The notes under the pieces: model-generated
What the model was told of the DNA's origin: nothing
Databases searched by the model: none
The model's input: the letters and a program-made list of their open reading frames with translations, nothing else
Part shown: positions 9,253-30,618 of the stretch, one piece after another
Numbering within the stretch: position 1 is the first letter of the stretch
How the letters are laid out: every line of letters begins with the position of its first letter
Program-made: the position numbers and the translations under genes
Source of the DNA: Paraburkholderia flava
Lineage (GTDB): Bacteria; Pseudomonadota; Gammaproteobacteria; Burkholderiales; Burkholderiaceae
NCBI RefSeq assembly: GCF_004359985.1
Contig: NZ_SMRO01000002.1
Coordinates: 1,812,536-1,876,535, forward strand
Direction: 5' to 3'
DNA: 64,000 nucleotides

Positions 9253-9759
9253 ATGGGGTACTCCTGTAGCGAAGGCGGCAATATGGACAACCCGTCGACT
9301 GCCCTGCGAACGTCGTTGGAAAAACGTGCGGGCACGGCTGAACGCAGGACGAAAATCTCCTGACTGCGCCTAACGATACGCGGGAGATCCGACGTGAAGA
9401 AAATCTAAAATAATTCAAAAAAATTCAAACGCGGTCGATTGGAAGAAAGAAATGAATTGAAATGAAACGATGACCGCTCGCACTGCACACCGACGCAGCA
9501 GTCGATCGTTTTTACCGCCATGCGCGGCGCGGGTTTGCAGTTTTTACGGATTCACGTTGTGGAATATCGAAATAATCACGACCGTTCATTTGATGACGTC
9601 GCGATGTCATTCAAAACATTCAGTCGTTTCATTACGGTTTTTTCGCAATTTCTTTTCCTTAGAATGGATTCGCTTCCGTGAGCACGCGGAGGGTCGTCGC
9701 GTGCGCGCACGATCTACGCTGCTTCAAGCAACACCCTTCAAGGATTACTCAGGACGCTC
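9253..9759. other. Divergent regulatory region between bceP and bceO
   Basis: This 507-base stretch separates divergent bceP and bceO. Two AT-rich tracts (about 9400-9470 and 9545-9665) carry several ATTCA/TTCATT words like those upstream of bceS and bceA. I see no gene in it. A GG-N10-GC arrangement occurs in each direction (minus strand, 9645-9658; plus strand, 9691-9704), but both are poor sigma-54 matches. Confidence 0.4.
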
Positions 9760-13718: not shown

Positions 13719-14957
13719 TTACCCCAAAGCAATAGCCTCCCCATAAACCTTAGCCACCCTCTCCGCGATAACCGAATTATCAAAATTCGCCCGAGCATAA
13801 GCCTTACATGCATGCTCATCCGGCAACTTCATCGACCCGTTCAGCGCCCGCGACAACCCATCGGCAATCGCGTCAGCACCAGTAGTCGGCAGCACGAGAT
13901 CCTGCGACAACCCAGCGACCGCTTCCGGCAATCCCCCCACCGGCGTAACAAGCACCGGCGTACCCGAAGCAAGCGACTCAACAGTAATCAACCCAAAGCC
14001 CTCAAGCGCAACCGTAGGCACAACACTAATCGTCGCAGCACGATACAAAGCAGCAAGATGATTGTCCGGCACGAAACCGAGTAACTTCACGTTGTCTGCA
14101 AGCCCCGCTTCATCGATACGCGTTTGCAGTTCGCCTTCGAGCCGCCCCTTGCCGGCGATCAGCAGCAACACATCCGGCTCGCGACGCTTCAACTGCGCGA
14201 TCGCATCGATCAGATCTTCGAGTCCCATGCGTCGCACGAGACGCCGCACCGCCAGCACGATCGGTCGGCCGAGCGGCAGTTGCAGTTTCAGACGCGCTTC
14301 GTTCTGCGACATCGGCAGATCGAACTGATCGACGTTCACGCAGCCCGGCACCACACGGATGCGATCCTGCGGAATACCATAGCGCGTCGTCAGAATATTG
14401 CCGAACGCTTCGGACAGCACGATCAATCGCGACGAGCGCGCGTAGACGGTCTGTTCGAGGTAACGCTTCGCACGCTGACCAAGCGAGTCCGCGCCTTCGA
14501 CATGACTCTCGTCGGCCCACGGTCCCTGAAAATGCGACACCTGCGGAATGCCGCGCATCACGTCGAGTCCCGGAAACGTGTACAACGCGAAGTGCGACGA
14601 AATCACGTCGGGCCGTTGCGCGCGAATCTGCCGACGTAACGCGCGACGCGCAGCCATCAACCGCAACGGCAGCGATTGCGCGGCCGATCCGAAACCTTCG
14701 ATCGCTCCACCGGTGTCGGCGGCGACCTTCGCCGATCCCGCGACCACGCCGCGCACTGCAACGCCCGCTGCCGGCAATGCGCCGACGAGCGAGTAGTACA
14801 TCCGGTCGAGTCCACCGGCACGCTCGGGAAACCAGTGCATTCCGATCTGCAGCGAGTCGATCGAACGCCCGACCGGTCCGGCGCCGCCACCACCTCCCCC
14901 GTTCCCCGTTCTGAGCGTCGGTGCCTCAGCGAAATTCTCTACGATGGCCTGCATCAT
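13719..14957 (-). CDS. bceK: GT4 family glycosyltransferase (BceK-like)
   Basis: A 412-residue GT-B glycosyltransferase, last gene of the long bceB-K transcription unit. A Gly-rich stretch (GNGGGGGGAGPVG) near residue 20 precedes the first Rossmann domain, which starts with SIDSLQIGMHWFPERAGGLD. The donor domain carries RPIVLAVRRLVRRMGLEDLI and the E-x7-E region EGFGLITVESLASGTPVLVT, typical of GT4. It starts ATGATG; the first ATG overlaps the bceJ stop, so the two are translationally coupled. Predicted job: addition of one sugar to the lipid-linked repeat unit; the donor cannot be told. The 3' third of the gene (about 13719-14060) has an unusual base skew next to the inverted-repeat element, but the frame is intact. 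Confidence 0.9.
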   Translation of the reverse strand: MMQAIVENFAEAPTLRTGNGGGGGGAGPVGRSIDSLQIGMHWFPERAGGLDRMYYSLVGALPAAGVAVRGVVAGSAKVAADTGGAIEGFGSAAQSLPLRLMAARRALRRQIRAQRPDVISSHFALYTFPGLDVMRGIPQVSHFQGPWADESHVEGADSLGQRAKRYLEQTVYARSSRLIVLSEAFGNILTTRYGIPQDRIRVVPGCVNVDQFDLPMSQNEARLKLQLPLGRPIVLAVRRLVRRMGLEDLIDAIAQLKRREPDVLLLIAGKGRLEGELQTRIDEAGLADNVKLLGFVPDNHLAALYRAATISVVPTVALEGFGLITVESLASGTPVLVTPVGGLPEAVAGLSQDLVLPTTGADAIADGLSRALNGSMKLPDEHACKAYARANFDNSVIAERVAKVYGEAIALG

Positions 14958-16189
14958 TCAGCTCCCTGTTCGACGCGTTTATGACCCGCGTGGCCCGCGA
15001 GCACATTCGCTGCGAGCGGTTCGTTATCGGCGGCACTCACGCTGCGAGCCGCATGACGACGCTCCCCAAGCTGGCGATATAGTGCGATGTACTGCGCGGC
15101 CATCCGCGCCCAGCCGAAACCGGTCGCGAGTTCATGCGCGGCCACACCCATCGCGCGACGCGTATCGTCCGCGTCGGCGAGTCGCGCGATCGCAGCGGCA
15201 AGTGCATGAGGATCGTCCGGATCGTCGAGCACGATCCCGCATTCGGGTGTGATGATCTCCGCACCGCCCGCAGTACGCGCGGTGACGACTGGCAGTCCCG
15301 CCGCCATCGCTTCGAGCAGCGACAGACTCATCGCTTCGTAGCGCGACGGGAATACGAATGCGTCGACGGAATGCATCAGCACCGGCATCTCTTTCACGAG
15401 ACCGAGAAAATGCACGCGGTCCGCGATGCCGAGCGCACGCGCCTGCTCCGGATAAGGACTGCCCGGCAGATAGCCCGCCACCGCGATCTGCACATGCGCC
15501 GGCAAATGACGCAGCGCTTCGAGCACGGTGCCGAGGTTCTTGCGCGGCGTGCGCAGATCGCCGACGAACAGCAGCAGAAATGCATCGGCCGGCAGGTTGA
15601 ATTTCGCGCGATCGCCGTGCGCTGCCGCAAAGCCCTGCGTATCGACGCCGTTGTAGATCACGTCGAGCCGGTTGTCCGGCGTGAGGCCGATCGCGTCGAT
15701 CTCGGCTGCGACCTTCTGCGACACGGCGGTAATCACACGCGAGCGACGATACGCCCAGCGTTCGAGCCACGAGTTGACCCGCGTGTAGACGGCCTGGTAC
15801 GCGGACCACAGTCCCTTCGTCAGGCCGAACGGGTAATAGCGGCTTTTCAGCCAGCCGCTATGCACAAAGTGTGCTGTGTTGACGTCGGCGGCGGCCCACG
15901 TGATGAAGCCGTTCACGTGCAGCACGTCGTATTCGTCGCGATGGCGTCGCAGCCACAGCGCGCTGCGCAGCGCGAACACCTGCTGGCGCAGCAGATTGGT
16001 CGGCCACCAGCGGCCGATTTTCACCGGCACCCAGCGCACCAGCGGATGCGCGAGCAGATCCGGCGCGACATGCGACGCGACGAGCGTCACGCCGATGTTG
16101 TCGGCGAGCGCCGCGCTCGCGATCTCGTGATTGACGCGTCCCTGGCCGTCGTTGTGGCGGACGACGTGCGTGACGATGGCGACTCTCAA
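14954..16189 (-). CDS. bceJ: GT4 family glycosyltransferase (BceJ-like), TTG start
   Basis: A 411-residue GT-B glycosyltransferase for repeat-unit assembly. The canonical opening RVAIVTHVVRHNDGQGRVN is followed by VDTAHF-like acceptor-domain sequence, the hinge VIYNGVD near residue 180, and the donor motif ExxSLSLLEAMAAGLPVV near residue 297. The start codon is TTG at 16189, which directly follows the bceI stop codon in the same frame, so no longer form is possible. A GGAGG sequence inside the end of bceI is placed seven bases upstream. Translation therefore relies on ribosomes finishing bceI, and the weak start may hold the level of this enzyme below that of the polymerase. It overlaps bceK at its 3' end. 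Confidence 0.9.
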   Translation of the reverse strand: MRVAIVTHVVRHNDGQGRVNHEIASAALADNIGVTLVASHVAPDLLAHPLVRWVPVKIGRWWPTNLLRQQVFALRSALWLRRHRDEYDVLHVNGFITWAAADVNTAHFVHSGWLKSRYYPFGLTKGLWSAYQAVYTRVNSWLERWAYRRSRVITAVSQKVAAEIDAIGLTPDNRLDVIYNGVDTQGFAAAHGDRAKFNLPADAFLLLFVGDLRTPRKNLGTVLEALRHLPAHVQIAVAGYLPGSPYPEQARALGIADRVHFLGLVKEMPVLMHSVDAFVFPSRYEAMSLSLLEAMAAGLPVVTARTAGGAEIITPECGIVLDDPDDPHALAAAIARLADADDTRRAMGVAAHELATGFGWARMAAQYIALYRQLGERRHAARSVSAADNEPLAANVLAGHAGHKRVEQGAE

Positions 16190-17641
16190 TCAGGTGCCTC
16201 CATGGAGTATGAGATTGCGTCTGCGGACGAGTTTTTGATGGTGTGCCGCGGACAGGATCGAAAACACGCTCATGAAGAGCAGCAGCCCGCCGGTGCCGAC
16301 GAGCGAATTGGTGAACACGAGCATCGCGAAGATCGCGATGCTCAGACTCAGACATGCCGACGCGAATTTGTCGTCGCGCAACCGGAACGAGGCGCGGAGC
16401 GCGCGCGCGAGCAGCCAGAGAATCCCCGACATGTACAGCAGCGTGCCGGGCCAGCCGAGCACGAACGGAATGTTCATCACGCCGCTGTCGAAGTTGCCGT
16501 ACTTGCCGAGTTCGCCGCCGTCGTTCGACAGTTTCGTCGACGTGCCGGTCGCGCCGAGTCCTTCGCCGGACACGTCGGTGAATGCGGTCTTTGCGAACGA
16601 CGCATAGAACTCGTTACGTGCCGCGTAGCTGGTGTCGTCACTGAGGTTCGTCAGCGTTTCCAGCCGCGCCTGCATCCGGTCCGCGACCGGGCCGAACGCG
16701 AGCAGCGGCACCGACAATCCTGCAAGCAGGATCGCGCTCGCGATGATCCGCACGCGCACGCGGTTGCTCGACTTCACGAGCTGGATCAGCAGTGCGATCA
16801 CCCAGCCGCCCCACGTCGAACGCACGAGGCTCAGACAGAACGACAGGAAGCCGAGCGCGCCCGCGATCCAGCGCACACGATGCTGCGCCGCCATCACGTA
16901 GACCATCGCGCCCATCATCGCGAACGCAAACGGTCCCGACGAATTCATCGTGCTGAACACGCGCACGCCGAACGGTACGGGATCGCCCTGCGAATTCATC
17001 TGCGAGCCGATCATCCACAACGCGTCCCACTGCGGCATGATGAAGAACTGGATCAGCCCGTAGCCGCCCATCGCGAGCATGCCCCAGATGAACGTATTGA
17101 CGATCGTGTCGCGGTACTCGGGGTACTGGCGCGTGTTCGCCATGATGTGAAAGCCGATCAGGATCGGATAGATCCAGTTCGCGAGGTCGTAGGTCGCAGC
17201 GAGCGGCCCGCTCGCGACGACGCCGATCAAAAAGCCATACGCGAGCCCGAGCAGGATAAGCAGCACCGGCAGGCCACGCCGCTGCGCGAGCACCGGGTAA
17301 TAGCGCAGTAGCGACAGTCCGCTGATCATCGTGACCGCGAGCGGCGCGATCTGGATCAGGCTCGTCGGCGTGAAGCCGCCGCGTGTCCAGTCCGCGAGGC
17401 GGCGCACTTCCGGGCTCAGGAACCACAGCCACCACATGAAGCCGATGTAGCGCGCCGGGCTTTTGAAGTACAGCCACAGGCCCGTCAGGATCGACAGCAC
17501 CGGGAACGCGAGCGTGAGCACCGAGCCCTGATGCGCGACGATCAGCGCGGCGGTGACGACCCATAGCAGGACCGGCGGCAGCCATTCCTGCGGGCTACCG
17601 CTGGGTCGTGCCGCGCCGGCGGCTCGTAGGAGCGTCGACAT
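16190..17641 (-). CDS. bceI: Wzy-type polysaccharide polymerase (BceI-like)
   Basis: A 483-residue polytopic inner-membrane protein predicted to polymerise flipped repeat units in the periplasm. It has about eleven hydrophobic segments, starting with PPVLLWVVTAALIVAHQGSV, and a large loop between residues about 330 and 400 (ETLTNLSDDTSYAARNEFYA, then GEGLGATGTSTKLSNDG), as in the O-antigen ligase/polymerase family, whose members are hard to tell apart by sequence. Genetic context (flippase, exporter, kinase, glycosyltransferases) favours polymerase over ligase. The ATG has GGAGG ten bases upstream and lies three bases after the bceH stop. Confidence 0.85.
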   Translation of the reverse strand: MSTLLRAAGAARPSGSPQEWLPPVLLWVVTAALIVAHQGSVLTLAFPVLSILTGLWLYFKSPARYIGFMWWLWFLSPEVRRLADWTRGGFTPTSLIQIAPLAVTMISGLSLLRYYPVLAQRRGLPVLLILLGLAYGFLIGVVASGPLAATYDLANWIYPILIGFHIMANTRQYPEYRDTIVNTFIWGMLAMGGYGLIQFFIMPQWDALWMIGSQMNSQGDPVPFGVRVFSTMNSSGPFAFAMMGAMVYVMAAQHRVRWIAGALGFLSFCLSLVRSTWGGWVIALLIQLVKSSNRVRVRIIASAILLAGLSVPLLAFGPVADRMQARLETLTNLSDDTSYAARNEFYASFAKTAFTDVSGEGLGATGTSTKLSNDGGELGKYGNFDSGVMNIPFVLGWPGTLLYMSGILWLLARALRASFRLRDDKFASACLSLSIAIFAMLVFTNSLVGTGGLLLFMSVFSILSAAHHQKLVRRRNLILHGGT

Positions 17642-17644
17642 CGG

Positions 17645-18802
17645 CTACAGGCCTCCGCGAGCTTCGGCCGCGGCTTCGGTTGCTGCTTTGGTTGCTTGAG
17701 ATGCAGTGGTTCGCGTGCGCGTGGCCGGTGCTCGCCGTTGCAGCAACTCCTGCGTGATGCGCACGTGCTGCTGCGCGAAGTGCTGCGTCGTGAGGTCGCG
17801 CGAGATCAATTGCATGGCTGCCGTCTGTGCCTGGCGCAGTGCTTCGGCGGGATGCTCGACGAGGCGGTCCGCCGCAGCGCGCAATACGGCTGCGTCGAAC
17901 GGCGGCACGTACATGGCGGCTTGCGGCGAGAAGTAATCGTCGAGTGCGCCGACCTGCGTGACGATCATCGGCTTGCCGAGCGCGGCCGCTTCGAGCATCA
18001 CGGTGATACCGGATGCATGCGTGTTCGGCCGCAGCGGCACGACGACGACGTCGGCCCAGTCGTACAGTTCGTGCTGTTTGCGCAGACCCGATGCGGGCGC
18101 GATCTCGACATTCGACGCACGCAGCGACTTTGGAATGCGACGGCGAGTCGCGAGGCGCACGGCGTAGCGCGGATCGTTACCGAACGCGCCGATCAATGTC
18201 TCCCAGTCGCGATCTCGATCGTTGCCGATCGCCGCGATGCGCAGCGGCGTGTGCGGCTTCCATTCGGCCGGCGTTTGTACCGGGAAGTCCTGTGTGTTGA
18301 GGCCGTAGTACACATGCGTCGCCTCGCGATCGAAATACGTGCGGCACAGTTCCGCGTTTTCGCTGGCAAGCGTCGTCAGCACATCCGCGCGCGCGATCAA
18401 CTTGCGATACAGCCAGCGCCGCAGCATGCCGTAGTTCGGCCACTTGTCGAGCAGCCACACGCTTTGCGCGAGCAACAGCGGCGGCGCCTTGCGGCGCCCC
18501 GCCAGCAGCAGCACCAGCGCAACCGACAGATGCTCCTGCTCGGTATGCGTCCAGATCACGTCGGAACGCAGGATCTCCGCGCGGTTGCGCAGCGTGTGGA
18601 TCAGATCGAAGCCAAGCGTCGCCTTCAATGCACGGCGCAGCAGCCGCATCGGCGCGCGCTCGCGTGTGTCCTGCGAATAGGTCAACGCGAAGTCATCGGA
18701 CTCCGCATGGTGATAGCCGTACAGGCAGCCGATGTTCTCGCCTTTTCGGTAGTAGCGCGGATCGGCGCCGTAAAACAGGTGAACGTGAATGTTCGTCGTC
18801 AT
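17645..18802 (-). CDS. bceH: Glycosyltransferase, GT4-like (BceH-like)
   Basis: A 385-residue GT-B type glycosyltransferase. The N-terminus (NIHVHLFYGADPRYYRKGEN) is less typical of GT4, but the C-terminal half has the donor-binding layout: LRIAAIGNDRDRDWETLIGA, then ADVVVVPLRPNTHASGITVM and LEAAALGKPMIVTQVGA. The C-terminal tail (about residues 360-385) is a low-complexity run of Ala, Thr and Glu. I chose the ATG at 18802, with GGAG seven bases upstream; the frame is open for 17 more codons without a ribosome site. The gene follows bceG by about 75 bases. Likely role: one transfer step in repeat-unit assembly on the cytoplasmic membrane face; the sugar is unknown. Confidence 0.87.
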   Translation of the reverse strand: MTTNIHVHLFYGADPRYYRKGENIGCLYGYHHAESDDFALTYSQDTRERAPMRLLRRALKATLGFDLIHTLRNRAEILRSDVIWTHTEQEHLSVALVLLLAGRRKAPPLLLAQSVWLLDKWPNYGMLRRWLYRKLIARADVLTTLASENAELCRTYFDREATHVYYGLNTQDFPVQTPAEWKPHTPLRIAAIGNDRDRDWETLIGAFGNDPRYAVRLATRRRIPKSLRASNVEIAPASGLRKQHELYDWADVVVVPLRPNTHASGITVMLEAAALGKPMIVTQVGALDDYFSPQAAMYVPPFDAAVLRAAADRLVEHPAEALRQAQTAAMQLISRDLTTQHFAQQHVRITQELLQRRAPATRTRTTASQATKAATEAAAEARGGL

Positions 18803-18877
18803 GCAGGGACTCCGGACCGTCGTTGCTGCGGTGAATGGCTGCGATTGGTGCACATCGATGCGGCGATCACGTCGACA

Positions 18878-19807
18878 TCACGTCGACGACAGCGCGCGCC
18901 GCGCTTCATGCGCACCGCCGCGCACCGCACGCCAGCGCGACCATTGCGTGCGGCCACGTTTCGACGTCAGCGCGAGCAGCGCATGCGCGAACCCCGGATA
19001 GACCCGCGTGCCGACCAGCGCATACCACCACCACGCGGTCTCGCGACGCATCGGCGGCAACTGGTCGCGCAGGATCAGATGCAGGTTGTACGCGGCGTTA
19101 CGCACGGCCGCGAGCGTCTGCGCATCGCGGCGGTCGTCGTCGAAGCGTTCGGCCGGATAGTGGTCGACGGCGACGCGCGGGTCGTAGACGAGCTTCCAGC
19201 CCGCATTCCTCACGCTCAGGCTGAACGCCATGTCGTTGTGCACCTGGGCACCCGCGCCGCGCAGCCGCGAATCGAAACGGATCGCGCCGATCGCCGCGCG
19301 CCGGTAGCTCATGTTGGCGCCCTTCAGCAGATCGACTTCGCGTGCTTCGCCGACACCCAGATGATGATTGCCGATGATCTTGCCCGACGGCGTCAGCTTG
19401 CCGACCAGCGCGCGCGAGCCGTCGAGAATCGTGCCTTTTTCATGCACCCAGTCGCGGCCGCCGAGCGCGCCGAGACGCGGGTCGAACGCGAACGCGGCGG
19501 CGATCCGTTGCAGCCAGTCGGGATGCGGAGCGGCGTCGTCGTCGGTGATCGAGATCACGTCGCCGGTCGCGGCGTCGAGTCCGCAATTCAGCGCGGCGAC
19601 CTGGCCCGGCTGCGTGACCGATGCGATGCGCAACGGCAGCGTGCCGGTCACCGACGCATCGCGGAGGCACGCATGTGTCGCGTCGTCGTCGGGTCGCGCG
19701 ACCACGACGACTTCGTCGGGCGCGCGCAGTTGCCGTTGCAACGCCGCGAGGCAGCGCGCGAGATCCGCGGGGCGGCGGAAGGTCGGAACCAGAACCGTCA
19801 CTTTCAT
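18878..19807 (-). CDS. bceG: GT2 family glycosyltransferase (BceG-like)
   Basis: A 309-residue GT-A, family-2 inverting glycosyltransferase. It opens with MKVTVLVPTFRRPADLARCL and has the nucleotide-sugar/metal motif ITDDDAAPHPDWLQRI near residue 93, followed by an acceptor region containing LLKGANMSYRR. This is the only GT2-type enzyme in the locus; the others are GT4-like. The ATG at 19807 is selected because it has GGAG at good spacing and starts the GT2 fold directly. A GTG/ATG pair at 19843/19840 overlapping the bceF stop would add 11-12 residues. It is coexpressed with bceF through close spacing. Substrate not deducible from sequence. Confidence 0.88.
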   Translation of the reverse strand: MKVTVLVPTFRRPADLARCLAALQRQLRAPDEVVVVARPDDDATHACLRDASVTGTLPLRIASVTQPGQVAALNCGLDAATGDVISITDDDAAPHPDWLQRIAAAFAFDPRLGALGGRDWVHEKGTILDGSRALVGKLTPSGKIIGNHHLGVGEAREVDLLKGANMSYRRAAIGAIRFDSRLRGAGAQVHNDMAFSLSVRNAGWKLVYDPRVAVDHYPAERFDDDRRDAQTLAAVRNAAYNLHLILRDQLPPMRRETAWWWYALVGTRVYPGFAHALLALTSKRGRTQWSRWRAVRGGAHEARRALSST

Positions 19808-19839
19808 CGGATGTTCTCCAGTAGCAGAAGCGTTGCGCA

Positions 19840-22062
19840 TCACGTGCTCAGGTACTCCTGTACTGCTGCGTAGCTGCGGTCGTAGCCGCCGCGCGCACGC
19901 GCCGGCATCGCGTTGAAGATGCCGCCCTGCACGTGCACGCCGGCCACCTTCAGACGCTTCAGCGCATCGCCGATCTCGCCTTCGCTATGCATGCCCGAGC
20001 GCATTACGAAGAACGTCGAGCCTGCGTAGCCGCCGATGATCGACGCATCGGTCACCGCGAGCACCGGCGGCGTATCGATCAGCACGACGTCGTAGCGCTT
20101 CGCGAGCCCTTCGAGGTACTGCGGTAGACGCGGCGACATCAGCAGCTCGGACGGATTCGGCGGACGCCGTCCGCACGAAATGAAGTTCAGGCCGTCGACG
20201 TCGGTCGGACGAATGGCCTCTTCAAGCGAGATCTGTCCGGACAGCAGTTCCGACAAGCCGTTTTCCTGCGGCCCGCCGATATGCCGTTCGAGCGCGCCGC
20301 GCCGCATGTCGCCGTCGATCATCAGCATGCGTTTGCCCGAATGCGCGAGCAGCACGCCGAGATTCACCGTGAGGAAGCTCTTGCCGACGCCAGGCATCGG
20401 GCCGGTCAGCACGATCACGCGATTGCGCGCATCGAGCAGCGTGAACTGGATCGACGTGCGCAGGCTGCGCAGACTTTCGATGCAGACGTCCTTCGGCCGC
20501 GCGGTGGCCAGCACCGCGCGCTGACGATCGCCGCCGCGTTCGACCGCCTGTTCGAGCACCGCCTGCTGCGCACTCATCGGCACGAGGCCGTACACCGGCA
20601 GATGGAACGTGCGTTCGATGTGCTCCGGATCGTCGATGCCCTTGAACATGTTCCGGCGCAGGAACACGAAGCCCGTGCCGACGATCAACCCGAGAATCGC
20701 CGCCGCCGACACGATCAGCGTCTTCTTCGGCTTGATCGGCGCGCCCGGACGCAGCGCTGCGTCGACGATGTGCACGTTGCCGCCGGTCCCGGCCTTCTGC
20801 ACCGACAGTTCCTGCACGCGGTTCAGCAGCAGCACGTAGATGTCTTCGGCGACCTTCGCGTCGCGTTGCAGCTGCACGGCCTTCACTTCGGTTGCCGGCA
20901 GATCGCGGAAACGGTCGCTGTATTTCGTGCGCTGCGCCTCGAGTTCGGCGAGCTGTTCGCGTGCGGCCTTCAGCATCGGATGGTCTTCGCCGTAGCGCTG
21001 CTGCAGCGAGGCGATCTGCAAACGAGTCGCGGAAATCTGCTGTTCGTACTGGACGCTGCCTTCGAGGTAGACCTTCGCTTCGTCGCTCGCGTTGATCGAA
21101 CCGGACTTGCTTTGATACGCGGTCAGCGCGGCCTCCGCGCGTTCGAGATCGCTCTTCAGGCGCGGCTCTTCGCTTTGCAGGAAGTCGAGCATCTTGCTCG
21201 CGTCGGCCTGCTTCGTCGCGACGTGTTCGCGCAGGTACGACTGCGCGAGCGCGTTCGCGATCATCGCGGCGCGCGCCGGGTCGCCGTTTTCCAGCGAGAT
21301 CTGGATCACGCCGGTTGACTTGCCCTGCTCCGTCACCTGGATCGCGGACTGAAACGCGGTGATCGCATCGAGATCGTTCGCGCGCATCACGTTGAACTGC
21401 GTGCCCGGCCGCGCGACCAGCTTGTTCACGAGGATCGACACGCCACCGCCTTGCGCGGGCTGGCCGACTTCGCCGGTCAGCAGCTCGGTGCCGTTCGGTG
21501 CCTGCAACCGGTAGCGATCGTTGCCGAGCGCGGTCATCGTCATCTTCTGGCCTTCGAGTGCCGGTGCGACTTCGACCGAATCGACGTCGGCGACTTCGCC
21601 GCCCCACGCATACGAGCCGAGGCCGAACCACGGACGCGCCGGTTCCCCCGGTTTCGCGAGACGCGCGGCGAGGCTGCCGAGCAGCGGCAGCGTTTTCGGC
21701 GACACCGAGAAGTTCAGCTTGCACTGCTGAACCACTGGAGCGACGACGCCGCGACTCTTGATGATTTCGATTTCCGCGTCGGTCGGCAGCGACGTCGAGC
21801 CGCTGGTGATCGCCGCGCCCGTCTGCGTCTGCGTGAGCGCCTGCGACGTGCTGTCGGACTGCTCGACGCGCACATGCGCGTCGGCGGAATAGACCGGCTT
21901 CGCGATGTAGCAGTAGAAGACGGCCATCGCGACGATCGCCGCTGCGATCGCGATCAACCACCAGATGTCGTCGATGATGACCTGCAGCAGCTGACCGAGG
22001 ACGACGTCTTCCTCTTCGGTCTTCGCCATCAGGTTGAGATGCGGATTTGCCTGGTTGCTCAT
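19840..22062 (-). CDS. bceF: BY-kinase and chain-length regulator (BceF/Wzc-like)
   Basis: A 740-residue bacterial tyrosine autokinase that controls polymerisation and export with the outer-membrane channel BceE. The N-terminal half is a Wzz domain: a first transmembrane helix near residue 35 (IIDDIWWLIAIAAAIVAMAV), a long periplasmic coiled-coil-rich part, then PGAPIKPKKTLIVSAAAILG as the second helix near residue 440. The C-terminal cytoplasmic kinase has Walker A GPMPGVGKS near residue 555, Walker A' MLMIDGDMRRG and Walker B DVVLIDTPPVL. The tail has three clustered tyrosines (GYDRSYAAVQEYLST) that serve as autophosphorylation sites. The phosphatase BceD, two genes upstream, is the expected antagonist. 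The ATG at 22062 has a GGGA element upstream; an upstream in-frame start at 22089 is less likely. Confidence 0.94.
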   Translation of the reverse strand: MSNQANPHLNLMAKTEEEDVVLGQLLQVIIDDIWWLIAIAAAIVAMAVFYCYIAKPVYSADAHVRVEQSDSTSQALTQTQTGAAITSGSTSLPTDAEIEIIKSRGVVAPVVQQCKLNFSVSPKTLPLLGSLAARLAKPGEPARPWFGLGSYAWGGEVADVDSVEVAPALEGQKMTMTALGNDRYRLQAPNGTELLTGEVGQPAQGGGVSILVNKLVARPGTQFNVMRANDLDAITAFQSAIQVTEQGKSTGVIQISLENGDPARAAMIANALAQSYLREHVATKQADASKMLDFLQSEEPRLKSDLERAEAALTAYQSKSGSINASDEAKVYLEGSVQYEQQISATRLQIASLQQRYGEDHPMLKAAREQLAELEAQRTKYSDRFRDLPATEVKAVQLQRDAKVAEDIYVLLLNRVQELSVQKAGTGGNVHIVDAALRPGAPIKPKKTLIVSAAAILGLIVGTGFVFLRRNMFKGIDDPEHIERTFHLPVYGLVPMSAQQAVLEQAVERGGDRQRAVLATARPKDVCIESLRSLRTSIQFTLLDARNRVIVLTGPMPGVGKSFLTVNLGVLLAHSGKRMLMIDGDMRRGALERHIGGPQENGLSELLSGQISLEEAIRPTDVDGLNFISCGRRPPNPSELLMSPRLPQYLEGLAKRYDVVLIDTPPVLAVTDASIIGGYAGSTFFVMRSGMHSEGEIGDALKRLKVAGVHVQGGIFNAMPARARGGYDRSYAAVQEYLST

Positions 22063-22134
22063 GATTCGGTCCCGTGTGGGTCGCCGCACGCGCGAGGCAC
22101 CGGGCGGTGCTCGCGCTGTGCGGCGGTTCAGGGT

Positions 22135-23325
22135 CTAGCGGGTCAGCTGCTTCACGTAGAACATGGTTTCGATCGTCGGCAGCACCTGCTGCAGCACGCG
22201 GTTGAACGTCGCCGACGCTGCGGTGCCGACGTACACGACGTCGAGCGGATGCAGCTGGAACTGCGTGGACAGCATGATCGAGTCGGGCTGCGTCATGTCG
22301 AGCCGGAAGACTTCGGGCTGCGTCGGCTTGTCCTTCATGCCGCGCATCACGTAGATCTGCCGCGGGTTCGCATCGGTGTCGAGAATGCCGCCGGCCTGCG
22401 AGAGCGCATCGGCGATCGTCAGACGCCCCTTCAGCATGTTCAGCGGCATCGGGTTCTTCACTTCGCCGAGCACGAACACGCGACTATCGGTGCGGTCCGG
22501 CACGTTGATGATGTCGCCGCCCTGGAGCATCACGTTCTGCGACGTGTCGCCGCGATCGAGCAGCCGGTTCGCGTCGAGCACATACAGCTGGTTATTACGC
22601 GTGAGGCGTACGCGTTGCAGATCGGCATCGCTGGTCGTGCCGCCCGAGCGCGTGATCGCGTCGACGAGCGAGATCGGCACATCGCTGATCGCGAGCGGCC
22701 CGGGCGTCTTCACTTCGCCGGTGACCTGCACTTTCTGGCCGCGATACGACAGCACGCGCACGTCGACCTGCGGGTTCTTGATGTACGGCGCGAGGCCCGC
22801 GGCGAGTTGATCGCGCAGTTCGCCGACGGTCTTGCCCGCCGCGTGAATGCGCCCGACGAACGGGAAATAGATCGTGCCGTCGGCCGCGACGGTCTGCCCG
22901 AACGGGTCGGCCTGGCCCGGCAGCGCGGTCGTGTACGGCTGCTGCATCACGCCGGCAACCGACTGCGTCGTGTTGCCGCCGGCGGACAGCGACGTGCCGT
23001 TCGGTGTCGTCAGTTCGGGGTGATCCCAGACGGTCACACCGAGAATGTCCTGCGGCGAAAGCCGGTACACGTAGTGCTCCGGATCCGCGAAACGCGACTT
23101 CGGCAGCAGTTGCGGCGCGGCGGCGGCCTGCGCTTCCGAGAGCACGAGGTTCGCGTCGATCAGTTTCACCGGATAGGTTTCGGCCGGTGTCTGGCTTGGC
23201 TCTTCCTTCAGCCGCGATGTGTCGAGGTAATTGCCGGGCGCGGTCGCGCAGGCCGACAGCAACGTCGTCAGCAGTGCAAGCAGCGTCGGCAGTGTTGCCA
23301 GAGAGGGGAACGAGAGTTTGCGCAT
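22135..23325 (-). CDS. bceE: Outer-membrane polysaccharide export lipoprotein (BceE/Wza-like)
   Basis: A 396-residue lipoprotein of the Wza/OMA family that forms the export channel through the outer membrane. The signal peptide ends in the lipobox LLSAC with the acylated Cys at residue 26. The Poly_export domain starts near residue 95 (YVYRLSPQDILGVTVWDHPE) and two SLBB-type domains follow (GQKVQVTGEVKTPGPLAISD and SRVFVLGEVKNPMPLNM). The start is placed at the ATG that overlaps the bceD stop (TAATG); an ATG two codons earlier (23331) is also possible, and no strong ribosome site separates them. It acts with BceF, encoded directly downstream, in a Wza-Wzc style complex. Confidence 0.93.
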   Translation of the reverse strand: MRKLSFPSLATLPTLLALLTTLLSACATAPGNYLDTSRLKEEPSQTPAETYPVKLIDANLVLSEAQAAAAPQLLPKSRFADPEHYVYRLSPQDILGVTVWDHPELTTPNGTSLSAGGNTTQSVAGVMQQPYTTALPGQADPFGQTVAADGTIYFPFVGRIHAAGKTVGELRDQLAAGLAPYIKNPQVDVRVLSYRGQKVQVTGEVKTPGPLAISDVPISLVDAITRSGGTTSDADLQRVRLTRNNQLYVLDANRLLDRGDTSQNVMLQGGDIINVPDRTDSRVFVLGEVKNPMPLNMLKGRLTIADALSQAGGILDTDANPRQIYVMRGMKDKPTQPEVFRLDMTQPDSIMLSTQFQLHPLDVVYVGTAASATFNRVLQQVLPTIETMFYVKQLTR

Positions 23326-23768
23326 TAGCATATTTTTTTCAGCCATCCCATGACCAGACGTTCGATGAATACGAGGCTTTCGCGGTAGTCCGATTCGGTG
23401 CGGCCGTGCGGATCGGCGACGTCGGAGTCTTCCCATTTGCCGAGCGTGTGGACCTTGCCGCGCGCGGTCGGGTCGAGCGCTTCGACGTCCCTCACCTGAC
23501 GCCGCTCGGTCACGAGTACGAGATCGGCGTCGCGAATGAGCCGGCGCGTGAGGCGCCGTGCTCGATGAAATCCAGCGGTGATGCCGCGCTCGGCCAGCAG
23601 GCGCAGCATCACCGGGTCGATGCTGTCGCCGTCGAGCGCGCGCAGCCCCGCCGACCGGAACGCGATCGGCGCATCGTTGCTGTCACGCTGGCGGGCGTTG
23701 AACAGCGCCTCCGCGGCGGGCGAGCGGCACACGTTCGCATGGCAGACGATCAGGACATTGGCAAACAT
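23325..23768 (-). CDS. bceD: Low-molecular-weight protein tyrosine phosphatase (BceD-like)
   Basis: A 147-residue cytoplasmic phosphatase predicted to remove phosphate from the C-terminal tyrosines of BceF and so allow cycles of polymer export. The active-site loop CHANVCRSP has the nucleophile Cys9 and Arg15 (C-x5-R-S), and the conserved general-acid loop is in DVADPHG near residue 115. The length is typical of the family. The ATG has AGGAG six bases upstream. The end of the gene overlaps bceE by one base, giving a TAATG junction. Confidence 0.95.
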   Translation of the reverse strand: MFANVLIVCHANVCRSPAAEALFNARQRDSNDAPIAFRSAGLRALDGDSIDPVMLRLLAERGITAGFHRARRLTRRLIRDADLVLVTERRQVRDVEALDPTARGKVHTLGKWEDSDVADPHGRTESDYRESLVFIERLVMGWLKKIC

Positions 23769-23789
23769 CGGCGACTCCTTTGCGGCGCG

Positions 23790-25217
23790 TTATAGCGCAA
23801 CCGTGGTGTGCGCGGCCGGCGCTTCATGCACGGCCTGACGCGAAGAACCCGTCGACGTCGGCCGACGACCGATCGCGTGATACTCGATGCCGAGTTCGGC
23901 GAGCGCATCCGGTTCGTACAGGTTGCGGCCGTCGAAGATCAGCGCGGTCTTCAGATGACGCTTCAGCGCGTCGAAATCGGGGCTCTTGAACACCTTCCAT
24001 TCGGTGAGGATCACGAGCGCGTCGGCACCGTCCGCGACTTCCATCTCTTCGTTCGCGAACGTGAGGCGTGCGTGCTGCTGCGGCACGTGCTGCAGATCGA
24101 GCGCGAATACACGCTTCGCTTCGTCGATCGCGACCGGGTCGTATGCCTTGACGGTCGCGCCGCGTGCGAGCAGCGCGGCGATCAGCGGACGGCTCGGGGC
24201 TTCGCGCATGTCGTCGGTGTTCGGCTTGAATGCGAGGCCCCAGACGCCGAACGTGCGGCCCGTCAGGTCGTCGCCGAGCCGCTCGACGATCTTGTGCGCG
24301 AGGATTTTCTTCTGCGTTTCGTTGACGGCCTCGACGGCCTGCAGGATGCGCAGGCCCGCGTCGTATTCGTCGGCGGTGCGGATCAGCGCCTGCACGTCCT
24401 TCGGAAAACACGAGCCGCCGTAGCCGCAACCCGCGTACAGGAAGTCGTAGCCGATGCGCGGATCTGAACCGATGCCGCGACGTACCGCTTCGATGTCGGC
24501 GCCGACGCGGTCGGCGAGATTCGCGAGTTCGTTCATGAACGAGATGCGCGTCGCGAGCATTGCGTTGGCCGCGTACTTCGTGAATTCGGCGGAATGCACG
24601 TCCATGTACAGCGTGCGTTCGCGATTGCGGTTGAACGGTGCATACACGCGCTTCATCAGTTCGCGGGCTTTTTCGCCGGGCATGTCGTCGTCGCAGCCGA
24701 GCACGATGCGGTCCGGGCGCGTGAAGTCTTCGACGGCCGCGCCTTCCTTCAGGAACTCGGGATTCGACACGACCGAGAACAGATGCTGTTCGCCGCGCGC
24801 GGCGAGTTCTTCGGCGATCGCTTCGCGCACGCGCAGTGCGGTGCCGACCGGTACCGTCGATTTATCGACGATCACCTTGAAGCCGTTCATGTGCCGGCCG
24901 ATGTTGCGCGCGGCCGCGAGCACGTATTGCAGATCGGCGGAACCGTCTTCGTCGGACGGCGTGCCGACCGCGATGAATTGCACGTCGCCGTGCGCGACGG
25001 CCGCTTCCACGTCGGTCGAAAACTTGAGCCGGCCGGCCTTGCGATTGCGCGCGATGATCTCCTGCAAGCCAGGCTCGTGAATCGGTACGCCGCCGTTGTT
25101 CAGCACGTCGATCTTGCGTTCGTCGACGTCGAGGCAGAACACATCGTTGCCGATGTCCGCCAGGCAGGCGCCCGTCACAAGTCCTACGTAGCCGCTACCG
25201 ATGATCGTCAGATTCAT
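23790..25217 (-). CDS. bceC: UDP-glucose 6-dehydrogenase (BceC-like)
   Basis: A 475-residue cytoplasmic enzyme that oxidises UDP-glucose twice to UDP-glucuronate, the donor of the acidic sugar of the polymer. The NAD motif is [20 protein letters not shown] at the N-terminus. The catalytic Cys lies in [12 protein letters not shown] near residue 270, and the central-domain helix [18 protein letters not shown] is present. The C-terminal UDP-binding domain ends by residue 455, followed by a short Thr/Ala tail. GAGG is spaced eight bases before the ATG. It uses the product of galU at the other end of the locus. Confidence 0.95.
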
Positions 25218-25315
25218 GAATTACACCTCGGAGATTGAACGTGTTCAAAGCTAAAAATGCGGATGCGCGATGTGCGGAACATCGCGCAGCGTGACCGGTG
25301 CTGCTCATCAGCAGC

Positions 25316-26713
25316 TCAATACGCGTTGCGGCCGGCGAATCCTTTCCACAGCGTCAGCACGACGATCTTGATGTCGAGCCAGAAGGTCCAGTGCTGCATG
25401 TAGTACAGATCGAGCTTCACGCGGCCCATCATCTTTTCGATGCGATCGGTTTCGCCGCGATAGCCGTTGATCTGCGCCCAGCCGGTGATGCCCGGCTTGA
25501 TCCGGTAGCGATGCATGTAGCCCTTCACCAGATCCTTGTAGATGTCGTCGTGTTCGAGTGCATGGGGCCGTGGTCCAACCACCGACATCTCGCCCTTCAG
25601 CACGTTGATGAACTGCGGCAGTTCATCGAGGCTCGTGCGTCGCAGGAACGCACCGACCGGCGTGATGCGCGGATCGTGGCGCGTCGCCTGGGTCACCTTG
25701 CCTGCCGTCTCCGCATGAACCTTCATCGAGCGGAACTTGTAGATCTCGAACTGATGCCCGTCGATGCCCTTGCGCTTCTGCCGGAAAAACACCGGACCAC
25801 GCGACGTCGTCTTGACCAGCACCGCGATCACGAGCATCAGCGGCGCCAGTGCCGTCAACGCGCCGAGCGCGAACAGCCGGTCGAACACACGCTTCGGCAG
25901 CACCCGCAGATCGGTGATCGGCGACGCGGCGAGATTGATCGCGGGCACGCCGAGCAGATCGACCATCGGCTGACTGAACAGCGTCAGGCTGCGCACATCC
26001 GGGATGAAGCGGATGTTCACGAAGTCGTTGCGCAGTTCCATCACGAAGCGGTGAATCGTGCGCTCCTTCGAAATCGGCAACGCGAGCCACAATTCGCGGA
26101 TCGCCTGAGCCCTCACGAGCCGGATCATTTCCGCGTAGTCGCGTTCCACCGGCACGCCTTCGATCGATTCGGCCTCGTCCGGGTCTTCGTGATGGCTGCG
26201 CGGACTGTCTTCGTCGAACACCACCACGGGACTGAAACCCGCCTCCGGCCGGCTGCGGATCTGCTCGATCAGAAACTTCCCGTACGGCGCACCGCCGACG
26301 ATCGCCACCGCCTTCTGGTTGAAACCCTCGCGACGCAAACCCTTCAGCACCGAGTAGACGATCGCCTTCGTCGCGACCAGCAGCAGCACCGTCGCCAGCG
26401 CCCAGTAGCCGAGCCACAGCCGCGACAGCAGCTCTGAGCGGTGCAGGCTGAAGCTCATCAGGACACCGGTGCCCTCCACCATCACCCAGCCACCCGTCAC
26501 GCGCCACAGCAGGTCGTACAGCGGCTTGCCGCGCCACGACTGATAGATCCCCAGCGCCGGAAAGAACACGACCACCAGCAGGCAGTTGAACGCGAGCGTG
26601 ACGCTCTGCATGTCGTTCAGCCAGCTGAACTCGCCGTTGTGGATCGCCGCAGCAATCCATGCGCCCAGCGCCACCATCGCAATGTCGATGATTCTCGATA
26701 AAACGCTCAGCAT
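25316..26713 (-). CDS. bceB: Undecaprenyl-phosphate glucose-1-phosphate transferase (BceB-like)
   Basis: A 465-residue polyisoprenyl-phosphate hexose-1-phosphate transferase that starts the repeat unit by moving glucose-1-phosphate onto undecaprenyl phosphate. Four to five N-terminal helices (residues 5-130) precede a CoA-binding-like Rossmann region ([19 protein letters not shown]). The C-terminal catalytic domain starts at about residue 270 with [20 protein letters not shown] and carries [19 protein letters not shown] and [11 protein letters not shown], diagnostic of the family. The ATG at 26713 follows GAGGTG; the frame is open 44 more codons upstream without family sequence. It is the first gene of the bceB-to-K unit, about 200 bases downstream of a sigma-54-type promoter. 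Confidence 0.94.
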
Positions 26714-26920
26714 GTGCCGCACCTCAGTTCGCCATTCAAGTTCCGTCACCTGTTCGCGTCGTACGGGAATCGTTGTCCGAATGAGTGAATACCCTTGTAC
26801 AGGGTTAGATAAAGCGGCATTAAAATTCGCGCTGCAAGGCCGCAAAATATCTCAAAATGTATCGGCAATTCTTGCGCTATTTTTGTTGAATTTTGTTCGG
26901 CAAGATTTACCATTTCTGGG

Positions 26921-26936
26921 TGCAATCGGCGTGCCA
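26921..26936 (-). promoter_or_regulatory. Sigma-54 (RpoN) -24/-12 promoter for the bceB-K operon
   Basis: Read on the minus strand the site is TGGCACGCCGATTGCA, which matches the RpoN consensus TGGCACG-N4-TTGC(A/T) at every defined position. It faces bceB, with transcription expected to start near 26910 and leave a leader of about 200 bases. Cepacian genes in Burkholderia are known to need RpoN and a c-di-GMP-linked enhancer-binding protein (BerB), which agrees with this reading. Confidence 0.8.
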
Positions 26937-27136
26937 TATGGCCATTTCACGCATGTTGCATGTCGATCTGACGTATGAATTGGTATGAGCTGCAAGCGCT
27001 TCCGTCTCTGATGATGCGCCGCCGCAAATGTTGCAGAAAATTTCAGTGCTTGATTTAATTTTTAATTTTCGTGTTTTTCACAAAAGTTGAAATAAAAGCG
27101 TCGTACGTTTACTCGTCGTCGCTATTTGCTTATTCC

Positions 27137-27151
27137 ATTCATTCGATAAAA
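27137..27151 (-). promoter_or_regulatory. 15-mer shared with the bceS upstream region
   Basis: TTTTATCGAATGAAT on the minus strand here is identical to the plus-strand copy at 1514-1528. Both lie in AT-rich non-coding DNA upstream of polysaccharide genes (about 75 bases before bceA and 135 before bceS). A regulator site is possible; no protein is known to me for it. Confidence 0.35.
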
Positions 27152-27225
27152 ATTCCCCGATTTTTTATTGACTATTTACGACGTGATACAACTCGACGCA
27201 TTGACCCAGCCTCGAGGAGTACATC

Positions 27226-28749
27226 ATGACTGCTCCGGTAACGGCGCCCAACGCCGACACCCGGTTTTCGACCGCCGCGTCACAGAACGTCAAGCTGAAG
27301 ATACATCCGGTGATTCTCGCCGGCGGCTCCGGCACACGACTGTGGCCGATGTCCCGCGAGCAGTACCCGAAACAGCTGATCGGCCTGCTCGGCGACGACT
27401 CACTGCTTCAGTCCACGACACACAGACTCGACGGTCTCGAGGCGGGCCATCCGCTCGCGGAACGACTCGTTGTCGTCAGCAATGAAGAACATCGCTTCAC
27501 GACCGCCGAACAACTGCGCACGAGCGGCAAGGCGAGCCGCCTGATCCTCGAGCCGGCCGGTCGCGATACGGCGCCGGCACTGACGGTGGCGGCGCTGTCG
27601 GTGGTCGCGGAGGACGGCGACGGCATCATGGTCGTGATGCCCGCGGATCACGCCGTGACCGACACCGCCGGTTTCCACGCGGCCGTCGCGGCCGGCGTGC
27701 AGCACGCATCGAACGGCCACATCGCGACGATGGGCATCGTGCCGACGCATGCGGAAACGGGCTATGGCTATATCCGCATCGGCGAAGCGCTCGACAAGAG
27801 TACGTCTGAGATCGGTGCGCACCGGCTCGATCGCTTCGTCGAGAAACCGCATCTCGAGCTCGCGCAGCGCTACGTTGCGTCAGGCGAATACTGGTGGAAC
27901 AGCGGCATTTTCATCATGCGTGCGTCGACGTGGCTCGCCGCGATTGCCCACTTCCAGCCGGCGATTCACGAAGCGTGCAAGACCGCATTCGCGGGTGGTA
28001 CGTCGGACGGCGACTTCTTCCGGCTGCAGCGCGATGCGTTCGTCGCGTCGCCGTCGAATTCGATCGACTACGCGGTGATGGAGAAACTCGGCAGCGATAC
28101 GTCGGTGTGCAGTGGCGTCGTCGTGCCGTTGCAGGCGGGCTGGTCGGACGTCGGTTCGTGGGACGCGATCTGGCAGATCCTGCCGAAGGACAGCAACGAC
28201 AACGTGGGCCGCGGCCGCGTGATGTTCGAAGGCGCCGACTCGACGTTCGCGCATTCGGAAGGCCGGTTGATTGCCTGCGTCGGCACGCGTGATCTCGTGA
28301 TCGTCGAGACCGACGACGCGGTGCTCGTTGCGGACAAGGCGCACGTGCAGGACGTGAAGAAGATCGTCGGCCGGATTCGCAGCGAAGCGGGTCCGGAGGC
28401 GGTGAATCATCGCAAGGTCCACCGCCCTTGGGGCTACTACGATTCCGTCGACACGGGCGACCGCTTCCAGGTGAAGCGCATCGTCGTGAAGCCGGGCGCG
28501 CGCCTGTCGCTGCAGATGCATCATCACCGCGCCGAACACTGGATCGTCGTGCGCGGCACAGCGCTCGTCACGCGCGGCGAAGAGCGCTTCATCGTCTCCG
28601 AAAACGAATCGGCGTACATCCCGCTCGGCGTGACTCACCGGCTCGAAAACCCCGGCAAGATGCCGCTGGAAATTATCGAAGTGCAGTCCGGCTCGTATCT
28701 CGGCGAAGACGACATCGTGCGCTTCGAGGATACCTACGGAAGGCAATGA
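27226..28749 (+). CDS. bceA: Bifunctional mannose-6-P isomerase/GDP-mannose pyrophosphorylase (BceA-like)
   Basis: A 507-residue type II PMI/GMP enzyme that makes mannose-6-phosphate from fructose-6-phosphate and GDP-mannose from mannose-1-phosphate and GTP. The N-terminal pyrophosphorylase has the signature GGSGTRLWPMSREQYPKQ near residue 35 and FVEKPHLELAQRY near residue 205. The C-terminal cupin isomerase domain has RPWGYYDSVDTGDRFQVKRI and the metal-binding QMHHHRAEHW. The ATG is preceded by GAGGAG. It is transcribed away from bceB-K, so precursor supply can be set separately from polymer assembly. Phosphomannomutase, needed between its two steps, is not in the window. Confidence 0.95.
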   Translation: MTAPVTAPNADTRFSTAASQNVKLKIHPVILAGGSGTRLWPMSREQYPKQLIGLLGDDSLLQSTTHRLDGLEAGHPLAERLVVVSNEEHRFTTAEQLRTSGKASRLILEPAGRDTAPALTVAALSVVAEDGDGIMVVMPADHAVTDTAGFHAAVAAGVQHASNGHIATMGIVPTHAETGYGYIRIGEALDKSTSEIGAHRLDRFVEKPHLELAQRYVASGEYWWNSGIFIMRASTWLAAIAHFQPAIHEACKTAFAGGTSDGDFFRLQRDAFVASPSNSIDYAVMEKLGSDTSVCSGVVVPLQAGWSDVGSWDAIWQILPKDSNDNVGRGRVMFEGADSTFAHSEGRLIACVGTRDLVIVETDDAVLVADKAHVQDVKKIVGRIRSEAGPEAVNHRKVHRPWGYYDSVDTGDRFQVKRIVVKPGARLSLQMHHHRAEHWIVVRGTALVTRGEERFIVSENESAYIPLGVTHRLENPGKMPLEIIEVQSGSYLGEDDIVRFEDTYGRQ

Positions 28750-28848: not shown

Positions 28849-30030
28849 TCAGCCCACGACGTGGGAGACGAGTTGCGAGGTCTTCGGAAAACGATCGGCC
28901 GCGTTGTTGTCTGCTGCTTCTTCGGCCGCGTTCGTCGGGTAGCGGCGCAGCGCGACCCTGCATGCATTGGTGTAGGCGGCGACGTGAGCGTTGGCCGGAT
29001 GATTCACTTCCGGCACGGTGCGCACTGGCGGCAGCGTACGCGGAGCGTGTTGCACTGAAGGCAGCGTTTCGTCGTTTGCCGGCTCCATGCCTGCCCCTGC
29101 CAATACCGCGACCGGTGCTGCCGGCACTGCGCTGAAAGAGCCGTTTGCGTTCGCTGCTGCATCGGACATCGCTTCAGCTTCAACGACACCCGGTACTGCC
29201 GCAAGCGTCTTGCAGTTGCGCTCGATCCACTCGCCGGCCCACTCCATCGCGAACTCGCGTGCTGCATCGGCCTGCGCAAAGCGCGGACCGATCAGCCCCG
29301 ACCGTTCGACACGGTGACCATCCTTCATGATCTCGGCCCATGCGCGGAACATCGCGTTCGGCACCTGCTCGACTGCTACATAGATCACGTAGCCGCGTTG
29401 ATCGGCAATCTGCGTGCCGCGCGACGTCATGTTCATCCACACCGGACGACGCTCGCAATCGATTGCGAGCGTGTTGACGATATGCTCGCGATCTTCGCGC
29501 AGCTCCGCATCGGCCGATTCATGCGCTTCGTCCGCGGGTTCGCCCGACAGTTGTCGCGTGATATCGGCCATCGGATCGAGCGAGCGCCATACGTGCTCGC
29601 GATGCGACATACCCGAAGCCGTTTGCCATGATTCAGGGCTTTTCCAGAACACACCACGCATGCCGTCGTCGCGCGGCGCGGGGGTATGCGGCTGCGCTTC
29701 GACAACAGGCTTCGGAGTAGACACGGGGGCGCCCGGCTCGGGGACATACGCGAACGTGCGACCACCTTGCGACAGCTGACGAACCATCTCCGTCAGTGTG
29801 CCGTTTAGCTGCCACTCTTCGAAACGTCGCCGGCAGGTTGGCCCGGACGGATAGCGGCCTGGTAGCTTCGACCAGGGCTCGCCGGTAGTCAGAATCCAGA
29901 GAACCGCATTTGCCACGATGCGTGGTTCGGCGCGGGGTCGGCCACGTCTGTTCAGACGGACAGCCGGCTCATCGGAAACGAGCGCGGATAGCTGCGCCCA
30001 TTCATCATTGCTTAGCTCATCGAAAAACAT
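28849..30030 (-). CDS. Protein with IS5-transposase-like N-terminus and unknown C-terminus
   Basis: A 393-residue protein. Residues 1-90 (DELSNDEWAQLSALVSDEP, RRGRPRAEPRIVANAVLWIL, then GRYPSGPTCRRRFEEWQ) match the N-terminal helix-turn-helix region of IS5/IS4-type transposases (DUF4096). The DDE catalytic domain that should follow is absent. The remainder has a conserved-looking core (LAIDCERRPVWMNMTSRG to FAMEWAGEWIERN) flanked by Pro/Ala-rich linkers. Codon usage is like the host's and no terminal inverted repeats or target duplications are evident, so this looks like a domesticated transposase DNA-binding domain used in a regulator, not an insertion sequence. The ATG at 30030 has GGAG six bases upstream. 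It is convergent with bceA. Confidence 0.6.
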   Translation of the reverse strand: MFFDELSNDEWAQLSALVSDEPAVRLNRRGRPRAEPRIVANAVLWILTTGEPWSKLPGRYPSGPTCRRRFEEWQLNGTLTEMVRQLSQGGRTFAYVPEPGAPVSTPKPVVEAQPHTPAPRDDGMRGVFWKSPESWQTASGMSHREHVWRSLDPMADITRQLSGEPADEAHESADAELREDREHIVNTLAIDCERRPVWMNMTSRGTQIADQRGYVIYVAVEQVPNAMFRAWAEIMKDGHRVERSGLIGPRFAQADAAREFAMEWAGEWIERNCKTLAAVPGVVEAEAMSDAAANANGSFSAVPAAPVAVLAGAGMEPANDETLPSVQHAPRTLPPVRTVPEVNHPANAHVAAYTNACRVALRRYPTNAAEEAADNNAADRFPKTSQLVSHVVG

Positions 30031-30618
30031 GCATTTCTCCACACAGCCTGGCCTGGCTGCGGCGAGGGGCAGTCGCGAGTCTCGATGCTGCATGGATTCG
30101 CGTAGTGCCCCAGGTTGCACAATATGCTTATACGTTCTGGTCGCTTTGCGAAATTCGGCACTGCGTTAGTGCGGATTTTCCCTACTACAAAGCACAAAAC
30201 GTGGTCTCACTCGTGCATAGGAGAATTTGTGCACGAAGCATACCATCACCAGGGTTTGCATGAATATGACAGAGACAAGTGTTACTGAAAGAAACAAACT
30301 TGTCCGTTTCGCTGCGTCGCGTTGCGTTGATTAACGCGTGGCGATAGCAGCGATCGTGTCAGTTGAGACGCCTGGAACGATGGTTTTGCAGTGCATCTGA
30401 TCGACGACAGCCCGAATCCGGCAAGATCGCCGTTGGGCCGGTACAACGGTACTTATTAAAGACTACAGCGATGTGTCCGATGGACTTTTTCACACGGCTG
30501 ACGCAATTGTGTGAACCGCTTCCTCGTACATGCCCGCCGCATAATCGTTGGGATTCCTTGTGATTCTCGTCGGCGCACGTGTCGCAGGAAGTATAGGCGT
30601 TCCGTCGGCGAAGTGAAG
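30031..30618. other. Intergenic region without a recognisable gene
   Basis: This 588-base stretch between two minus-strand genes is less GC-rich than its neighbours around 30160-30330. A 24-codon open frame at 30259 (+) lacks a ribosome site. I see no RNA gene, strong hairpin or repeat in it; it presumably holds the promoter of the gene ending at 28849. Confidence 0.4.

Follow-up and report, generated by a model that had tools for sequence, protein, structure and literature searches.

In the 64,000-nt stretch of Paraburkholderia flava DNA analyzed here (the window), the gene run bceB-K is preceded by a perfect sigma-54 box that, by comparison with orthologous loci, is private to this lineage and sits at the upstream edge of a block of about 120 bp conserved across genera. 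This block is best read from its conservation as the ancestral promoter/operator, a better candidate than the box for the main control of bceB, and the box may be a lineage-specific extra promoter beside it, which is the preferred reading and is held tentatively.

The box, TGGCACGCCGATTGCA, has no mismatch to TGGCACN5TTGCA and agrees with the TGGCACG-N4-TTGCW consensus at 12/12 defined sigma-54 positions, including the GG-N10-GC core, and it is the sole match in the window at one mismatch or less. It is oriented toward bceB (ATG at 26713), and the predicted +1 lies near 26910, so that the initial annotation, which had described a perfect minus-strand site aimed at bceB with a start near 26910 and a leader of about 200 bases, agrees with what is found at 26921-26936 and with a predicted leader of about 197 nt. 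The same annotation had noted that bceA has no comparable site; the best plus-strand GG-N10-GC candidate in 26714-27225 reaches 7/12.

Features of the bceA-bceB locus in window coordinates (bce gene letters follow Pfam and the gene order in the available part of PMC7378592)
Feature	Position	Strand	Remarks
bceB-K gene run: export, kinase, glycosyltransferase and Wzy-like genes	13719-26713	minus	Pfam
bceB, priming sugar transferase, first gene of bceB-K	25316-26713	minus	Pfam Bac_transf and CoA_binding_3
Leader of the putative sigma-54 transcript	26714-26910	minus	about 197 nt; predicted from the box
Conserved block, about 120 bp, read as ancestral bceB promoter/operator	26779-26910	minus	profile match
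Candidate core promoter in the block	26786-26814	minus	CTTTAT (26814-26809), 17 nt, TATTCA (26791-26786); sequence reading
Sigma-54 -24/-12 box, TGGCACGCCGATTGCA	26921-26936	minus	exact match; GG 26935-26934, GC 26923-26922
Separate conserved element over the bceA start region	27163-27239	plus	matches at query ~464-540 in many genus genomes
bceA, mannose-1-phosphate guanylyltransferase/isomerase, divergent	27226-28749	plus	Pfam

The orthologs, gathered by protein search, comprise 77 named loci, mostly of Paraburkholderia with Caballeronia and Trinickia in addition, and in 77/77 of them bceA and bceB are divergent with 436-708 nt between the genes (one locus, L103, is shorter and its bceB start is uncertain). 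Scanned in full, none of these 77 intergenic regions contains a sigma-54 site above 10/12 toward bceB; the best scores are 10/12 in two regions, 9 in four and 8 or less in 71, and they lie elsewhere than the box position. The segment 26776-27100, used as a query, is matched by 107 of 144 genus genomes, the own genome included (the other 37 have no match to it, irrespective of bce gene content); among the alignments listed, those of the other genomes end at query base 144 or earlier, with the box at query bases 146-161, and none of the 106 other genus genomes shows the box within its aligned part, the sequence at its position having been inspected in 27 of them. In particular, the two closest genomes (G093 and G055), 94-95% identical over the block, carry a different sequence where the box lies, and the box is also absent in Paraburkholderia acidicola (L034). 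Four Burkholderia loci, to which bceB is 71-72% identical, and the locus of Caballeronia insecticola have, in either orientation, no site of at least 9/12 in the bceA-bceB interval. The positive control was the glnK gene, which in the own genome has a box of the same type, TGGCATGCGAGTTGCT, that scores 11/12; in contrast to the bceB box, retained in 0/77 orthologous regions, the glnK box is kept at 10/12 or better in 28/30 loci, own included. Retention in orthologs is not strictly defining of a sigma-54 promoter, since promoters can arise in one lineage.

The claim that the box drives the main exopolysaccharide operon, being the principal promoter of bceB-K worked by RpoN and an enhancer-binding activator (NtrC, or BerB as originally proposed), is favored by the perfect match; nevertheless it is unlikely, because the box, missing from the 77 orthologous regions and, as far as the alignments reach, from 106 genomes, is lineage-private and adjoins a block found in 78/78 upstream regions across genera, and because the second cluster, bce-II, has no sigma-54 box of at least 8/12 in its intergenic region (9256-9759) although both clusters are needed. 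A perfect consensus match thus needs an ortholog check before being named a driver.

The block was delimited by an iterated profile of 122 positions (26779-26900) that matches 78/78 upstream regions from Paraburkholderia, Caballeronia and Trinickia and ends 47-259 nt before the bceB ATG. Weaker matches stand at the same place in five of six further named loci, those of the four Burkholderia and Caballeronia insecticola (E 2e-4 to 2e-2), the Mycetohabitans locus giving no match; in the own genome, the search for second copies yielded nothing longer than words of 15-20 bases, the best at E 0.26. The initial annotation allowed for additional control within the leader, which fits the fact that the conserved block occupies most of it. 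The block could be supposed to act as RNA rather than as DNA, as a leader element (riboswitch or attenuator) of a sigma-54 transcript, since it fills the leader and begins at the predicted +1; however, this is highly improbable, as the block is present where no sigma-54 box precedes it and no conserved, covarying fold was detected: RNAalifold gives a consensus of 0.0 kcal/mol for 52 sequences on both strands (mean of column shuffles -0.08), the own leader has a folding z-score of -0.78 with 47/200 shuffles folding equally well, and Rfam holds no family matching the leader.

Since the block has no predicted structure, it is read as DNA, namely a promoter with regulator sites, and its variable distance from the ATG fits a promoter region with a free leader. 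Judging from this conservation, bceB-K would be controlled mainly by the block (26779-26910), with a core promoter near its downstream end and regulator sites in the remainder. CTTTAT-17-TATTCA is a candidate for this core promoter, weak by the sigma-70 consensus, and GTATTCACTCATTC (26779-26792) ranks within the top decile of conservation in the block; a sigma-70 consensus scan of 26700-27240 returned no sigma-70-like promoter, with 1.1 expected. A motif (TTTAA..CGCTTT, ATTCAC.CA) that the block would have in common with the sequence upstream of bceA was suggestive but was discarded, being equaled in 2-4 of 40 shuffles in the same sense and in 7-11 of 40 in reverse. According to the preferred reading, the sigma-54 box would have arisen in this lineage at the upstream edge of the block to serve as an extra promoter, where the RpoN holoenzyme would bind at 26921-26936 and initiate near 26910, yielding a transcript that carries the whole block as leader.

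The number of matches to the consensus does not distinguish a functional box from a fortuitous one. At one mismatch or less, the chance expectation is 1.0 per window and 68/100 shuffles contain at least one match, so a single match in the window at that threshold is unremarkable, an exact one being rarer. Over the 6.97-Mb genome, the 16-mer pattern has 3 exact occurrences versus one for the reversed pattern, and the 15-mer TGGCACN5TTGC gives 12 matches versus 16 for the reversed control in the own genome, 14 versus 20 and 9 versus 20 in the two closest ones; the counts of the 15-mer do not exceed the control and by themselves are not above chance, and match counts were therefore rejected as evidence for the box. 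On the contrary, the placement of matches is informative in this genome: 10/12 exact matches, the bceB box included, lie upstream of a gene on the same strand versus 4/16 of the reversed control (Fisher p = 0.003), as classified by a simple codon-score gene caller trained on 18 genes of the window with an upstream limit of 400 nt (one match is at 380). Among these 10 promoter-placed matches, four (L111, L113, L117 and L121) still have a box scoring 10/12 or more in each of the two closest genomes, three (L112, L122 and bceB) have an ortholog without a box in the closest genomes, and the remaining three (L114, L116 and L120) have no ortholog found in those two genomes. The chance matches expected at promoters range from about 0.7, if the control is scaled by coding hits (2 x 4/11), to 4 if it is unscaled, and the comparison of this range with three unretained matches gives near-even odds between an extra promoter and an inert box; these three could all be due to chance, or some of them could be recent gains.

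The preferred reading of an extra promoter is suggested by an exact and well-placed box, by the skewed placement of matches, by the four other boxes kept in both closest genomes, and by relatives in which cepacian or exopolysaccharide depends on RpoN; the occurrence of the box in 0/77 orthologous regions argues against it, and the boxless orthologs of L112 and L122, together with the four promoter-placed matches of the reversed control, indicate that chance promoter matches do occur. A serious possibility is therefore that the match is fortuitous and the box inert, with the conserved block as the sole source of bceB transcription, as in relatives, and RpoN acting indirectly. This would explain why the box is missing from 77/77 named orthologous regions and from the genus alignments when the glnK box is kept in 28/30 loci, and why total counts do not rise above the reversed control. 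In addition, RpoN affects exopolysaccharide in Paraburkholderia phymatum and cepacian in Burkholderia cenocepacia H111, as far as the available parts of the reports go, while the 77 regions, like the five bce loci of Burkholderia and C. insecticola, have no box above 10/12 toward bceB; this combination makes indirect action plausible. Conversely, a fortuitous origin has to account for a 12/12 match in the correct place and on the correct strand, before an operon group known to need RpoN, in a genome whose exact matches favor promoter positions.

The genome encodes RpoN, a protein with the sigma-54 AID, CBD and DBD domains, and 18 matches to the activator domain PF00158, 14 of them above 160 bits and none in the window. 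In the available sections of the literature, the cepacian clusters of B. cenocepacia H111 require RpoN and NtrC (PMC5491218) and a sigma-54 consensus is reported for the promoters of both bce clusters (PMC7378592), which bears out the earlier statement that cepacian synthesis depends on RpoN; an rpoN mutant of P. phymatum likewise forms less exopolysaccharide under nitrogen limitation (PMC5748707). The H111 system resembles the present one in having the same genes and the same sigma factor, and the B. cenocepacia strain compared shares the divergent arrangement of bceA and bceB; that strain, CMCC(B)23006 (L131), differs in having no GG-N10-GC site of at least 7/12 between the two genes. BerB, which had been put forward as the activator, is tied in the excerpted papers to berA and the Bep polysaccharide (PMC5552954, PMC9684580): the berA promoter likewise combines an RpoN box with an activator before an exopolysaccharide control gene, but there RpoN and the c-di-GMP-responsive BerB control berA and thereby Bep, another polysaccharide (PMC5552954), and RpfR, an upstream regulator, has no apparent effect on cepacian in the accessible text (PMC9684580). 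This link of BerB to berA and Bep rather than to cepacian also speaks against the box as main promoter in the form first proposed and, because cepacian in H111 needs NtrC (PMC5491218), NtrC is a better guess than BerB. By analogy with B. cenocepacia, NtrC, acting under nitrogen shortage, would be the most likely activator of the bceB box. The suggestion that bceA is set separately is at odds with the NtrC dependence of H111 I35_4767, read as bceA from its place in the portion of the published table available. The accessible parts of a B. cenocepacia J2315 transcript-start map (PMC4603805) hold no mention of BCAM085x, RpoN or cepacian, and those of a study of P. phymatum sigma-54 in nodules (PMC5979394) none of cepacian, Bphy_105 or Bphy_106.

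The search for enhancers upstream of the box, which the initial annotation had proposed, gave nothing of the glnK/NtrC type that stands out. No NtrC-like match within 3 mismatches is present in 26714-27225, and in the 289 nt scanned upstream of the box the best match to the enteric-type TGCACCN5GGTGCA has 5 mismatches, whereas 28/30 glnK upstream regions, scanned over 450 nt, contain one at 2-3 mismatches; a single loose GCAC-N9-GTGC half-site pair with 1 mismatch is present upstream of the box. The lack, upstream of the box, of any convincing site of NtrC-like or IHF-like type, as well as the weakness of the core promoter in the block by consensus, weighs against the explanation preferred here, that is, a box added as extra promoter to a block in main control.

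RpoN control of cepacian is already known, and what is new is the comparison of boxed and boxless relatives. RpoN and NtrC are needed for cepacian, and whether they act directly on the bceB promoter is the question that this comparison addresses: with one lineage carrying a perfect box and 77 relatives without any above 10/12, all of them having the block, it would separate direct from indirect control. It is conceivable, although somewhat doubtful, that in most of the genus RpoN governs cepacian indirectly, a control that this lineage made direct by a recent gain of the box; if true, this would be a promoter caught soon after its birth.

Other features were observed in the same genome. An exact TGGCACN5TTGC (L111, G000:C1:790915-790929) stands before the gene carrying the sigma-54 domains (rpoN) and persists in the two closest genomes, which suggests that rpoN is under its own control; another exact match, whose box likewise persists there at 10/12 or better, precedes a FAD/NAD oxidoreductase that is read as nirB-like, and a 12/12 box (L121, G000:C2:2218138-2218152), also kept in both closest genomes, lies before a bacterial-collagen gene (PF15984). 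The palindromic word GGAAGCGCTT, at window positions 26987-27008 about 100 nt upstream of the block, recurs with 1 mismatch in P. acidicola; considered as a general upstream element it was rejected, being found at one mismatch or less in 6/78 regions versus 5/390 shuffles. Ahead of bceP and bceO, the intergenic region of bce-II contains two conserved islands (9377-9427 and 9624-9679). Finally, an IS4/5-type transposase gene (DUF4096; 28849-30120) is located directly downstream of bceA, and in the available part of the published H111 table a transposase, BCAM0853, likewise adjoins bce-I.
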